Shown: positions 21,386 to 33,788 of the stretch, one piece after another | Numbering within the stretch: the stretch's first letter is position 1 | Layout of the letters: every line of letters starts with the position of its first letter | Origin: Deltaproteobacteria bacterium | GTDB lineage: Bacteria > Desulfobacterota > Binatia > Binatales > Binataceae | Assembly (NCBI GenBank): GCA_021827495.1 | Contig: JAKAVN010000019.1 | Span: forward strand, 1 to 34,168 | DNA: 34,168 bases | Direction: 5' to 3' | Made by a program: the position numbers and the translations under genes | Notes under the pieces: generated by a model | What the model was told of the DNA's origin: nothing | The model's input: the letters and a program-made list of their open reading frames with translations, nothing else | Database searches by the model: none

Positions 21386-21513
21386 GTCATCCTGAACGAA
21401 GTGAAGGATCTCGCGCGGTCCTCCGCGCGCTAATCCCGAAATGGTGGAGTACGCGCGGAGGACCGCGCGAGATCCTTCGACTCCGCTCGCGGATTCGCTT
21501 CGCTCAGGATGAC
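21386..21513. repeat. long imperfect inverted repeat (REP/MITE-like)
   Basis: Two perfect 27-base arms, 21403-21429 and 21452-21478, are separated by 22 bases. The outer ends (21386-21402 and 21497-21513) also pair with two mismatches, interrupted by about 18 extra bases on the right side. The arm ends read GTCATCCTGAACGAAG and its complement. This GTCATCCTGAGCGAAGCGAAGG type of repeat is common and intergenic in many GC-rich soil bacteria. It lies directly after hemW and just beyond the 3' end of lysS, where it may act as a bidirectional transcription end. The frames that run through it are translations of the repeat and not genes. Confidence 0.85.
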
Positions 21514-29637: not shown

Positions 29638-29757
29638 CTACAGAAACACCTCGGGCGAAACGCGGAAGTATTCGGCGAGGCGTTTGATGTTGGTCTTGCT
29701 CAGGCCGCGCTTGCCGTCGAAGCCGTCACGCCGATCTATCCCGAAGACTTTCGCCCG
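29638..29757 (-). pseudogene. C-terminal fragment of a HigA-like antitoxin
   Basis: The last 25 codons read GKRGLSKTNIKRLAEYFRVS and end PEVFL before TAG at 29638. This is the C-terminal part of the HigA/XRE antitoxin helix-turn-helix region (pattern SGKRxLxxxxIxxLAxxFxVSPxVFL). Upstream the frame runs on into sequence that does not look like the rest of HigA, and no toxin gene is seen. It is probably a broken antitoxin. The opposite strand is also open here and ends at 29835. Confidence 0.45.
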
Positions 29758-29831
29758 GACTCCGAGCGCACGCCGGAACTGGCGCGCGGCGAGGCTTGGC
29801 GGCGCTTGCGCGACCGGCCACGGCCCGATAA

Positions 29832-30185
29832 CTAATCGCTTGGCTTTGGTTCTGCCGCTGCGGCCTGCGCCTTCTCCTGCTTCGGTTTCATAGCTTCCTG
29901 CCACTTTCCCGCCACATCTCCGAACTGCGTCAAGTCATGCTGGTCGGTGCAGACGAACACACTTTCAAGGCTCGCATGAGGCACGAAAAAATCCCAGTTC
30001 GTAGCCGATCCCAAAATCCAATCGATCAATGTCAGGCGCACGCCTTGAGTGTCGATTGCCTGAATCTGGCCGACGTAACAACGGAGTGGTGCCGCGCCGG
30101 ACTTGAGCACCACCGCCGCCCACCGGCCGGGCTTCAGAGTTGGTTCGGTCGGTTTGGTCGCTGGTTTAGTCGCAGATTTTTTCAT
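29832..30185 (-). CDS. hypothetical protein, 117 residues
   Basis: A protein not recognised as a known family. A basic Lys/Thr/Pro-rich start is followed by GRWAAVVLKSGAAPLRCYVG and GVRLTLIDWILGSATNWDFF, then a charged Ala/Lys/Glu tail. The middle looks like a small beta-rich domain. AAGGGG lies about nine bases before the ATG. It is next to the tRNA scar on the chromosome side and could be accessory DNA. Confidence 0.6.
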   Translation of the reverse strand: MKKSATKPATKPTEPTLKPGRWAAVVLKSGAAPLRCYVGQIQAIDTQGVRLTLIDWILGSATNWDFFVPHASLESVFVCTDQHDLTQFGDVAGKWQEAMKPKQEKAQAAAAEPKPSD

Positions 30186-30424: not shown

Positions 30425-30484
30425 TGCCGAGGGCGGGACTTGAACCCGCATGTGCTTGCCCACGGAGGATTTTGAGTCTCCCGA
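30425..30484 (-). repeat. 3' fragment of a tRNA-Leu gene; probable attachment site of the trb element
   Basis: Read on the minus strand, the sequence has ACTCAAAATC (loop with CAA anticodon), a long variable region, the T arm GCGGG-TTCAAGT-CCCGC, and the acceptor end CCTCGGC plus A. These are features of tRNA-Leu(CAA). No matching 5' half (GCCGAGG acceptor strand or D arm) is found upstream, and the anticodon stem does not pair fully. CCA is not encoded. Partial 3' tRNA ends are the usual scars of integrases that use tRNA genes, with the host side carrying the displaced end. That fits a trb element starting to the right. This is an inference. Confidence 0.7.
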
Positions 30485-30594
30485 CAGATAAACGGCGATG
30501 CGTCGTGATCTGTCATTATCGAGCATAATCAAGGGCTTTTCCTGTACCACCCACCCCTCAAAAAGCCCGTTCAGACCGATTCCGGTCGATAGAA

Positions 30595-30726
30595 CAGCCA
30601 AAGTAGAGCCAAAGTCAGGGGCGAAATTGGCTCGTCAATCGCGGAGGACTTCGCGGAGGTTTTTCGCGATCCAAATCTCTCCGCACCTGGATCCGAGCGC
30701 TCGCGACTTTGGCTCTACTTTGGCTG
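30595..30726. repeat. perfect 22-bp inverted repeat upstream of trbF
   Basis: The arms at 30595-30616 and 30705-30726 are exact complements, 88 bases apart. Each arm contains the motif GCCAAAG twice, so it is also internally repeated. The right arm ends 17 bases before the trbF ATG, at a place where an operator, or a recombinase arm site, would be expected. Confidence 0.75.
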
Positions 30727-30743
30727 AAGGACGGTGAAGGCTC

Positions 30744-31412
30744 ATGGCTGCGAATCCATACGTCGAAGCACGCCGAGAATGGGATGAGCGCTACGCCGAT
30801 CTCGTTCTCGGCAAACGCAACTGGCAGATAGCGGCGGGCGGGCTGCTTGTTCTCTCTCTGATACTCGCGAGCGGCATTGTCTGGCTCGCGACGCGAAGCC
30901 GCTACATCCCCTACGTCGTCGAAGTCGACAAGCTCGGCTACGCACTGACGGTTCCACAGCCTCTTACGGCGGTTTCAGTACCAGACGTAACCGCCCGGAT
31001 GGAGCGCTACGAAGTTGCCGCATTTATCTGCGACGCGCGATCGGTATCCAGCGACACTCAAGTCGAGCAGCAGATGCTCAATTCTCTGCTCGCGCACGCG
31101 CGCGGCGCCGCGGATAGATTTTTGGATGAGTATTACCACTCGGACGACTTCGCTCGTAACCCGTTCAAGGTTGCGCAGCACCAGACCGTCACCGTCCAAA
31201 TCGATTCCATTCTCAGTCTCTCAGCACGCAGCTACCAAGTGCGATGGACTGAGATGACGCACGATCTGAACGGCGTGACGCTTGGTGCGCCGACGCATTG
31301 GGAAGCGGTTCTGCAGACACAGATCGTACCGCCGAATTCCGACGACACGATCGTGAGCAATCCGCTCGGTTTCTACGTGACGCAAATCAGCTGGACCGAG
31401 CAGCAGGGCTGA
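30744..31412 (+). CDS. trbF: conjugal transfer protein TrbF (VirB8 family)
   Basis: A 222-residue inner-membrane protein of a type IV secretion system. It starts MAANPYVEARREWDERYADL, the usual TrbF N terminus, followed by one membrane helix (IAAGGLLVLSLILASGIVWL). The periplasmic VirB8-like domain has IPYVVEVDKLGYAL, ERYEVAAFICDARSVSSD and YQVRWTE. TrbF/VirB8 links the inner-membrane platform to the core complex. GAAGG lies six bases before the ATG. The next genes follow at 14 and 5 bases, so this begins a trb operon. Confidence 0.9.
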   Translation: MAANPYVEARREWDERYADLVLGKRNWQIAAGGLLVLSLILASGIVWLATRSRYIPYVVEVDKLGYALTVPQPLTAVSVPDVTARMERYEVAAFICDARSVSSDTQVEQQMLNSLLAHARGAADRFLDEYYHSDDFARNPFKVAQHQTVTVQIDSILSLSARSYQVRWTEMTHDLNGVTLGAPTHWEAVLQTQIVPPNSDDTIVSNPLGFYVTQISWTEQQG

Positions 31413-31426
31413 AGGGAGGGATTGCG

Positions 31427-32374
31427 ATGAAGGCGATCAAATTCGCAGGCACGATCGCACTGGCGCTGACGCTGAGCGCGTGTGCGGCCCAGCAGCCGCC
31501 CGCGCCCCCGCCGCTCAAGATCGTAACCGAGGCCGCGCCCAAGTCCGCAGCAACTCCGGCGTCGTCGACCAGAGCACAGCTTCTGGCGCAGCAGCCGGCA
31601 GAGGTTCAGCAGGCGATCAAAGATCATGACCAGGACGGCACGTGGCCAGTCTACAAGACCCCTCAGTTGGTCCTCTATCCCTACAGCGGAGCATCGGAAC
31701 CTGTAGTGGATTGCGCGCCGCTGCGCACCACCGACATCCAGCTGCAGCCGGGCGAGACCATCACCGATGTGGCCATGGGAGACAGCGAGCGCTGGATGGC
31801 GACCCCAGCGGCCTCGGGCGACCCGCGCAATCCGGTGCCGCATCTGGCGGTGAAGCCGCAGCTTCCCGGCATTGAAACCAACCTCACTATCTACACGACG
31901 AAGCACATCTACCACCTGATCCTGCGCTCGCGTGGACACGCGATGCAGGAGGTCGAGTTTTACTATCCGGACGAACTGCTCGCAGCGATGAAGCAGGCCG
32001 ATGCGGCAGCGGCCGACGCCAAGCAAGTGGCAATCGATCCGCCGGCTGATTCCGACGACGTGGTGAAGGTCGCGAACGTCGACCCGGCGCAACTCAATTT
32101 CTCGTACAACGTGGCCGGCGCGAAAGTGCCGTGGAAGCCGATTCGGGCCTTCGATGACGGCTCGCACGTTTACATCCAGATGCCCTCCGGAATGAAGACG
32201 AGCGATGCTCCCGCTCTGCTAATCGACGCGGGCAGCGGAACCCAGATGGTCAACTATCGGGTCGAGGGCAACTACTACGTGGTCGATCGGCTGTTTAGCA
32301 ACGCGATTCTGGTCTCCGGAGTCGGCCGGGACCAAGACCGCGTGACGATCAGCTACGCGGGCGCAGCGAGGTAA
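31427..32374 (+). CDS. trbG: conjugal transfer protein TrbG (VirB9 family), lipoprotein-like
   Basis: A 315-residue exported protein. The ATG at 31427 has GGGAGGG upstream; an in-frame extension to 31298 is shadow sequence over trbF. The signal peptide MKAIKFAGTIALALTLSAC carries a lipobox with C19. VirB9/TrbG features are PQLVLYPYSGASEPVVDCAP, LQPGETITDVAMGDSERWM, HLAVKPQLPGIETNLTIYTT and the C-terminal NYRVEGNYYVVDRLF. TrbG forms part of the outer-membrane core complex with TrbI. Confidence 0.92.
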   Translation: MKAIKFAGTIALALTLSACAAQQPPAPPPLKIVTEAAPKSAATPASSTRAQLLAQQPAEVQQAIKDHDQDGTWPVYKTPQLVLYPYSGASEPVVDCAPLRTTDIQLQPGETITDVAMGDSERWMATPAASGDPRNPVPHLAVKPQLPGIETNLTIYTTKHIYHLILRSRGHAMQEVEFYYPDELLAAMKQADAAAADAKQVAIDPPADSDDVVKVANVDPAQLNFSYNVAGAKVPWKPIRAFDDGSHVYIQMPSGMKTSDAPALLIDAGSGTQMVNYRVEGNYYVVDRLFSNAILVSGVGRDQDRVTISYAGAAR

Positions 32375-32379
32375 CAGTC

Positions 32380-33510
32380 ATGGCAAACCCAGAGCCAATC
32401 CAAGAGGTCGAGGAGCAGGATCAGGAACGGCTCGGAGGCGGTCGATTCAACCGCCTGCTCGGGCTGCTGGTCATCGCTGTTGCAATGATCGGCGGAATCG
32501 CGTTGGCGCTCGGCGTGGAGTCGTCAGGAAAGAGCGAGGAAGCGGCGGTTCAGAAGGCGCTCGAAGACCCAGGGTCAGTGGCGCGCGATCGCGGCGAAGT
32601 GGAAGACCTCGCCGTGCATGGAATGAGGCCCCATCCAGCGCCTAGTTACGTGGCAACTCCCGCGATCGTTGCGAGCGTTCAGACACCGGTCCAGCACGGC
32701 GCGCCGAAGCCCCCGAGCCGTTACGCGCAATGGGCGCAGGAGAAGTACATGAAGGCGCTCGAAGCGCCCGAAATGGTCGCGGCGTTTCACGGCGGGCAGG
32801 CCCTCGAAATCGCGAGCACCAAAGGTCAATCCGGCAACGGTTTAGAAGCCAATTCTTCGAGCGATCCGACAGTTACTTTGCATCCGCCTGCATCGCCATT
32901 CACGGTGACGGCGGGGAGCGTAATTCCGGCCGTTTTGGTCAACGGAATCAACTCCGATTTGCCCGGCCCGATTCTCGCTCAGGTGAGCGAGAACGTCCTC
33001 GACAGTGCAACCGGAAAGTATCTGCTCATTCCCCAGGGCAGCAGGCTGATCGGCGCTTATCGCAACGCCTCCGCATACGGTCAGGAGCGCGTCCAGATCG
33101 CGTGGCAGCGGCTCCTCTTCCCGAACACCGCAAGCATGGATCTGCCGCAGATGCCGGGAGCGGACCAGAGCGGCTTCGCCGGGTTCACCGACCAAGTCGA
33201 TCACCACTATCTCGCGACGTTCGGAACAGCCGCGGTCATGAGCCTGATCAGCGCGGGCCAGATGGTGGGACAGATGGGCGCTTTCGGCGGCGGAGGCCTC
33301 TACGGCCCCTATGGCTACTACCAGCCGAATCAGTGGGCGATGTCCGGCGAGATGGCGGGCTCCGCAGCGTCGTCACAGTTCGGCGCACTGGGCCAGCAGA
33401 TGATGGGCAACGGCCTCAATCGTCCGGCGACGATCGAAATCCGGCCGGGCTACCAGTTCAACGTGATGGTGACCGAGGACCTGGTGTTTCCCGGTCCCTA
33501 CGGAAAGTGA
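32380..33510 (+). CDS. trbI: conjugal transfer protein TrbI (VirB10 family)
   Basis: A 376-residue protein. One membrane helix (LLGLLVIAVAMIGGIALAL, 26-44) follows an acidic N terminus. After a Pro-rich linker comes the VirB10 domain: FTVTAGSVIPAVLVNGINSD, SENVLDSATGKYLLIPQGSR, RVQIAWQRLLFPN and the C-terminal YQFNVMVTEDLVFPGPY. A Gly/Tyr/Met-rich loop (from MGAFGGGGLYGPYGYYQPNQ) lies where VirB10 proteins have the antenna. It spans the periplasm and couples inner and outer complexes of the transfer channel. Confidence 0.92.
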   Translation: MANPEPIQEVEEQDQERLGGGRFNRLLGLLVIAVAMIGGIALALGVESSGKSEEAAVQKALEDPGSVARDRGEVEDLAVHGMRPHPAPSYVATPAIVASVQTPVQHGAPKPPSRYAQWAQEKYMKALEAPEMVAAFHGGQALEIASTKGQSGNGLEANSSSDPTVTLHPPASPFTVTAGSVIPAVLVNGINSDLPGPILAQVSENVLDSATGKYLLIPQGSRLIGAYRNASAYGQERVQIAWQRLLFPNTASMDLPQMPGADQSGFAGFTDQVDHHYLATFGTAAVMSLISAGQMVGQMGAFGGGGLYGPYGYYQPNQWAMSGEMAGSAASSQFGALGQQMMGNGLNRPATIEIRPGYQFNVMVTEDLVFPGPYGK

Positions 33511-33542: not shown

Positions 33543-33788
33543 ATGGGAGTTCTGAAACGCAAACAGGAGAACGAAGCGATCACCTTCAAGTTACCGGCGG
33601 CGCTGAAACGCGAGATCGAAACGCTGCGCACGCGCGCCGAGGACGCGGGCTTCGATCTCGGCGAGACGATCACCGCTGCGATGTGGCGGCTCTGCAAACA
33701 AATCAAAGCCGAGCTCGAAGGAGCGCCGCGACCGGGCAGGAAAGTGAACGGTCGCGCAAACGGCCAATCGGCGGAGCAGGTGCAGTGA
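33543..33788 (+). CDS. DUF2274-like small protein of the trb operon
   Basis: An 81-residue protein starting MGVLKRKQENEAITFKLPAA, with AGGAGACG upstream of the ATG. The sequence AITFKLPAALKREIETLRTR is the strand-helix of ribbon-helix-helix proteins. A small DUF2274 gene usually follows trbI in integrative elements, so this assignment rests on position plus the VELPAAL-like start. It may be a DNA-binding regulator; this is inferred. Confidence 0.65.
   Translation: MGVLKRKQENEAITFKLPAALKREIETLRTRAEDAGFDLGETITAAMWRLCKQIKAELEGAPRPGRKVNGRANGQSAEQVQ

Follow-up and report, generated by a model that had tools for sequence, protein, structure and literature searches.

A displaced tRNA-Leu(CAA) end and paired heptamer repeats mark the probable edge of an integrative conjugative element in Binataceae

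The stretch of contig C56 that begins at position 30425 is very probably one end of an integrative conjugative element (ICE) inserted in tRNA-Leu(CAA), in which heptamer repeats would serve as integrase arm sites and the integrase gene would lie at the opposite end. The window analysed is the whole of this contig (34168 bp), which belongs to draft genome G000 (Binatota, Binataceae; 3.63 Mb in 264 contigs). The close relatives compared were MAGs labelled 'Deltaproteobacteria' or Candidatus Binatus, i.e. Binatota. The sequences themselves contain a tRNA scar, an intact copy of the same tRNA gene, repeats at both ends, a complete relative on one contig and an integrase beside the same repeats.

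The scar, a displaced 3′ part of tRNA-Leu(CAA) extending from the anticodon loop to the 3′ end, occupies 30425–30478 (minus strand) and forms the attachment core at the junction of chromosome and element. It aligned with positions 30–83 of the sole intact tRNA-Leu(CAA) of the genome, an 86-nt gene on contig C107 (20767–20852), with 94% identity over 54 nt (3/54 positions differ). Similarity broke off in the anticodon stem, leaving the scar with no 5′ half. ARAGORN detected no tRNA gene in the window and Rfam returned no match at the scar and repeat region. An earlier interpretation made from the letters alone (hereafter the sequence-only reading) had proposed a tRNA-Leu 3′ piece without a 5′ half, in agreement with this alignment; its start at 30425 stood, whilst its end at 30484 had to be drawn back to 30478. 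The scar was closer to the tRNA-Leu(CAA) genes of G002, G010, G013 and G014 (98% over 54 nt) than to the intact copy of its own genome, particularly in the variable arm, as an original 3′ half displaced by integration would be. This pattern would fit an insertion in which the element carried its own 3′ half and displaced that of the chromosome, and is supportive although the differences are few. Just left of the scar, a short ORF (29638–29904) whose end reads like the tail of a helix-turn-helix antitoxin-type protein is probably a gene remnant.

The first gene of the element is trbF (VirB8-like; 30744–31412, plus strand; Pfam VirB8, E = 9e-43), whose best NCBIfam match was TrbF at 140.9 bits, slightly below the cut-off of 152. 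It is followed on the same strand by trbG (VirB9-like; 31427–32374; TIGR02775 TrbG_Ti, above cut-off), trbI (VirB10-like; 32380–33510; Pfam TrbI, E = 4e-58) and a small ORF (33543–33788) with no family match in profile searches. All three trb genes are intact open frames. The sequence-only reading had placed the edge of a conjugative element here, with trbF next to the scar, and this gene order bears it out. The contig stops 3.4 kb into the element, and the window from ~30740 (3 bp before trbF) to the contig end at 34168 was collinear with an element in G022 (75.5% DNA identity). No match was found between the tips of the two elements. Since the trb DNA matches G022 while the tips do not, the two elements share a transfer backbone and differ in their attachment module. 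Further trb copies occur in G000 on C29, C20, C32, C149, C231 and C7, none of them beside a GCCAAAG tip. A draft metagenome assembly with several trb copies could in principle yield a chimeric junction of scar, tip and trbF. The same arrangement, i.e. a tRNA 3′ piece, a heptamer pair ~100–120 bp away and trbF as the first gene, was nevertheless seen at Ala, Lys, Leu and Arg tRNAs in several independent assemblies, which makes an assembly artefact extremely improbable.

The G022 relative is a 50-kb ICE with both ends on one contig (C15, 175317–225299). Its trbF-side scar (175317–175363) and the 3′ end of an intact tRNA-Ala(GGC) gene (225253–225328) form a perfect 47-bp direct repeat, and CGGACA repeats are present at both tips. 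Gene content, in order, comprises trbF-G-I, a MobA/VirD2-like relaxase, TraG, TrbB, TrbE, TrbJ, TrbL, SSB and a tyrosine integrase (219592–220659) near the far end, followed by ~4.5 kb of cargo before the tip. Thus, the direct repeat that includes attB is linked and perfect in G022 and is split between unlinked contigs in G000, and the full transfer set with relaxase and TraG is seen in G022, with trbF, trbG and trbI visible in the window before the contig ends. The check proposed with the mobile-element reading was to look for an intact tRNA-Leu(CAA) and to map the other element end by genome comparison; the outcome was as predicted, with the C107 gene in G000 and, in the relative, the two G022 ends 50 kb apart. 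By synteny, no empty site was recovered: the genes to the left of the scar (glyoxalase, SDR, 117-aa ORF) are not found after ahcY in G001, G002, G003 or G018, and other genes follow the metK-ahcY region in G001–G003. The right flank of the G022 element, with tRNA-Ala, is conserved in congeners and its left flank is not found beside it.

With G022 as the reference, the G000 element might instead be a decayed genomic island or conjugation remnant, immobile and marked by an old scar. The three mismatches in the scar, set against the perfect G022 repeat, and the lack of linkage to an integrase in the G000 assembly would agree with this. However, the trbF, trbG and trbI frames are intact, a trbF copy with 95% identity occurs in G012, a genome of another genus, and a donor-derived 3′ half accounts better for the mismatches. 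We consider decay unlikely.

Between the core and trbF lies the element tip, a presumed attachment arm region of 265 bp (30479–30743) that holds no convincing genes and can be aligned with the tips that other genomes have at tRNA-Leu(TAA) and tRNA-Arg(CCT). The inverted repeat reported here earlier, a perfect 22-bp match with internal GCCAAAG copies, was recovered, with arms at 30595–30616 and 30705–30726 and four copies of GCCAAAG/CTTTGGC in all. Longer arms (30595–30623 and 30698–30726) are 90% complementary and enclose the perfect 22-bp match. In Markov shuffles of the window preserving dinucleotide frequencies, perfect inverted repeats with arms at most 150 bp apart averaged 0.15 at a length of 14 bp and did not occur at 16 bp or above. 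The heptamers start at 30597 and 30608 (GCCAAAG) and at 30707 and 30718 (CTTTGGC), an 11-bp spacing within each pair. The first pair (GCCAAAG-TAGA-GCCAAAG, 30597–30614) lies 118 and 129 bp from the core, a distance kept in other elements. For the second, inverted pair (CTTTGGC-TCTA-CTTTGGC, 30707–30724), the distances to the core are 228 and 239 bp and those to trbF, downstream, 37 and 26 bp. Both are putative arm-type sites, and the second is a possible operator as well. The only other long inverted repeat in the window is a hairpin at 21.4 kb (21391–21491, TCATCCTGAACGAAGTGAAGGATCTC...), which has near-perfect 28-bp arms and sits between convergent genes. Weak Rfam matches of this hairpin to miRNA or sRNA families were dismissed, as similar pieces on C217, C82 and C238 mark it as a dispersed palindromic repeat.

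Searching the whole G000 genome with the 265-bp tip returned, besides itself, only C107:20919–20953 and C233:9613–9639. On C107, CTTTGGC occurs at +44, +83 and +94 from the 3′ end of the intact tRNA-Leu(CAA), followed by a gene for a 1234-aa ATPase. On C233, an intact tRNA-Leu(TAA) is followed after 82 bp by the pair CTTTGGCTAAACTTTGGC and, 0.6 kb beyond that pair, by a gene for a 385-aa tyrosine integrase reading towards the tRNA. As the search found these two places alone, the motif connects the 3′ ends of tRNA-Leu genes with element tips and with an integrase under no prior assumption. The intact tRNA-Leu(CAA) that the sequence-only reading proposed looking for is thus present on C107, with the same heptamers on its 3′ side, and we infer that C56 and C107, separate contigs unlinked in the assembly, are two ends of one copy. 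The statement that the element has no integrase survived in part. The window contains none, but it ends 3.4 kb inside the element, so this absence is uninformative by itself, and the G022 relative carries its integrase near the far end. In the G000 assembly, the only clade-matching integrase is the one at tRNA-Leu(TAA) on C233, which is not linked to the C56 copy. A second integrase of the clade, on C197, was rejected as the cognate enzyme; it is 43% identical to that of C233, and the nearby tRNA-Arg(CCT), towards which it is not oriented, has another repeat (GCCCGCTGT). The ATPase directly inside the far tip (L010, 8589–12290) resembles the PADLOC model PD-Lambda-4_A (E = 6e-26), and the element may therefore carry phage-defence cargo. 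In the G022 element, a cargo gene between integrase and tip (L199, 12756–15005) is weakly similar to the IetA/TRIP13 ATPases of defence systems.

We further compared the repeats across the family. In 12 genomes, a total of 13 intact tRNA-Leu genes (CAA or TAA) are followed at 74–84 bp by CTTTGGC-N4-CTTTGGC, and most of the 30 tRNA-Leu(CAA) loci in the family do not have this motif. Whole-genome counts of CTTTGGC-N3-5-CTTTGGC (34) were not much above those of a backward control (~24), so only location beside tRNAs is informative. Among 95 distinct tRNA 3′ flanks, a 7-mer direct repeat with 11-bp spacing was present in 35, a proportion that is not a population frequency because many flanks were fetched for their motif or integrase; any other spacing of 8–15 bp occurred at most twice. 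The repeats in 21 of these 35 flanks carry motifs other than CTTTGGC.

The identity of the heptamer follows the integrase clade. Elements with a CTTTGGC tip (G002, G011) encode integrases 63–89% identical to that of C233. Those with TGTCCG/CGGACA encode integrases about 68–100% identical to that of G022 and about 45% identical to that of C233, and further element types use TGTGGCTG, TTTGATAG, AGTGTGCC and others. In G022, G002 and G011 the integrase lies within the element. For some members of the broader integrase clade, the neighbouring tRNA is not accompanied by an exact 11-bp repeat. On the trbF side, the first arm pair lies 99–119 bp from the core regardless of motif (117–119 bp in three elements of GCCAAAG type, each at a different tRNA; 99–120 bp for other heptamers in other elements), with the exception of an extra CGGACA at 60 bp in L061. 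The same repeat thus stands at fixed distances on both sides of the core, i.e. on C107 and in the window. Given the spacing of 11 bp (one helical turn), the occurrence to either side of the core and the co-variation with the integrase, the GCCAAAG/CTTTGGC repeats are best read as putative integrase arm-type sites, a well-supported assignment. This favours the recombination arm site that had been offered as one option in the sequence-only reading: the intact tRNA is bordered by the same heptamer, and another integrase type comes with another heptamer on an unchanged trbF backbone.

The other option offered was an operator, in which the repeat (or a hairpin formed by it) would serve an element-encoded repressor of the trb operon and its resemblance to a recombination site would be incidental. 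The second pair is indeed found 37 and 26 bp before trbF both in the window and in the element at tRNA-Arg(CCT) (L066/L067), even though its distance to the core differs (228 vs 277 bp). Yet the same heptamer stands next to the intact tRNA at the opposite, trb-free end of the element, homologous trbF genes accompanied by another integrase have a different heptamer, and the first pair holds its distance to the core and not to trbF. Nor was a sigma-70-like promoter found between scar and trbF, a weak test as this consensus may not be that of the phylum. An operator role alone found no support and is very unlikely. The conserved position of the second pair relative to trbF hints at a possible second role, and a combination of the two functions, in which arm sites are bound by the integrase and the trbF-proximal pair lets it modulate trbF transcription, may be tentatively entertained. 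A precedent is the integrase IntS of ICEMlSym-R7A, a repressor of its own promoter, which lies inside attP (PMC11963761). Set against this, the second pair is absent from the G003 element, and the kept position comprises only two independent cases.

Returning to the arm-site reading, binding of these sites, excision and transfer of the element might proceed as follows. The integrating element would supply a new tRNA 3′ half, making the gene whole at the far end (C107), and the old half would stay behind as the scar on C56. The GCCAAAG/CTTTGGC copies would be arm-type sites bound by the integrase through its amino-terminal domain. In the excised circle, the arms would flank the core, three on the integrase side (+44, +83 and +94) and four on the trbF side (118, 129, 228 and 239 bp), and the integrase would bridge arm and core sites, cutting and joining in the anticodon loop. 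Its gene would sit at the opposite end of the element, reading towards the tRNA, as in this family. The integrase gene points to the tRNA end in nearly all cases, and trbF points away from the scar; with these orientations the two would be codirectional across the joined ends of the circle. A broader proposal, which we regard as rather doubtful, is that the ICEs of Binataceae share one fixed att layout with interchangeable heptamers and integrases, and that, given this codirectionality and the arms located just before trbF, integrase occupancy together with excision would switch trb on only in the circle. This layout would consist of the core, an arm pair ~50–95 bp away on the integrase side and another 99–131 bp away on the trbF side, each with 11-bp phasing.

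The kind of element proposed is already known, and several characterised systems resemble it. In ICEMlSym-R7A of Mesorhizobium, five arm sites (consensus TGKTGGTATC) lie in 283 bp of attP (PMC11963761). The likeness extends to a tyrosine integrase, a core with several short arm-type repeats to either side, conjugation genes and a tRNA target. In contrast, the integrase here may be separated from the tRNA end by as much as 5 kb, trbF is first at the other edge, the heptamer is GCCAAAG/CTTTGGC and the host is a member of the Binatota. Phage lambda-type attP is likewise bivalent, with a core and phased short arm repeats on both sides, whereas here the core is the anticodon-to-3′ segment of a tRNA and the arms keep an exact 11-bp spacing. 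Members of the Tn4371 family carry trbBCDEJLFGI in one run at one end, with an integrase and site of Tn4371 type. They share with the present elements a TraG, TrbB, TrbE, TrbJ, TrbL, TrbF, TrbG and TrbI system, the genes of this Trb-IncP-type transfer module being listed in PMC7385641. Here, the order seen in G022 is trbF-G-I, relaxase, traG, trbB, trbE, trbJ and trbL, and a different integrase inserts in the tRNA anticodon loop. Membership of the Tn4371 family was therefore rejected, as trbF-G-I precede the relaxase and traG in G022 and insertion is in tRNA genes. In Tn916, transfer genes are expressed only after circularization (PMC11658703). Judged from gene direction only, the orientation here would similarly allow transcripts to reach the transfer genes through the joined ends once the element has excised, and not before, although the integration target and transfer system of Tn916 are unrelated.

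Among the papers searched, none on such conjugative elements in Binatota was found, which is not proof of absence; they are apparently unreported in this phylum. The finding would explain both the strange repeat and the whereabouts of the integrase, and exposes a conjugative-element family in an uncultured soil phylum. As the heptamer differs between related integrases whilst the 11-bp spacing stays constant, these elements offer a natural series for the choice of DNA by the arm domain.

Finally, several junctions depart from the simple arrangement. At L172 (G023:C8) and L169 (G011:C16), a GCCAAAG tip and a tRNA-Arg(CCT) core are followed by a GGACACTTT tip with trbF, which is what two successive insertions of different att type would leave. 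L177 (G017:C5, 39336–39489) combines a tRNA-Leu(CAA) 3′ half with three GCCAAAG arms and no tRNA 5′ half, which suggests a junction inside an element or an end altered by rearrangement. At L079 and L080, a tip type with TGCCAGAA repeats lies ~200–300 bp before trbF and follows a half of tRNA-Ser(GCT) that is the 5′ one instead of the 3′ one, the element beginning right after the anticodon loop. Either this tRNA-Ser(GCT) would be disrupted or its 5′ half would be restored by the element.
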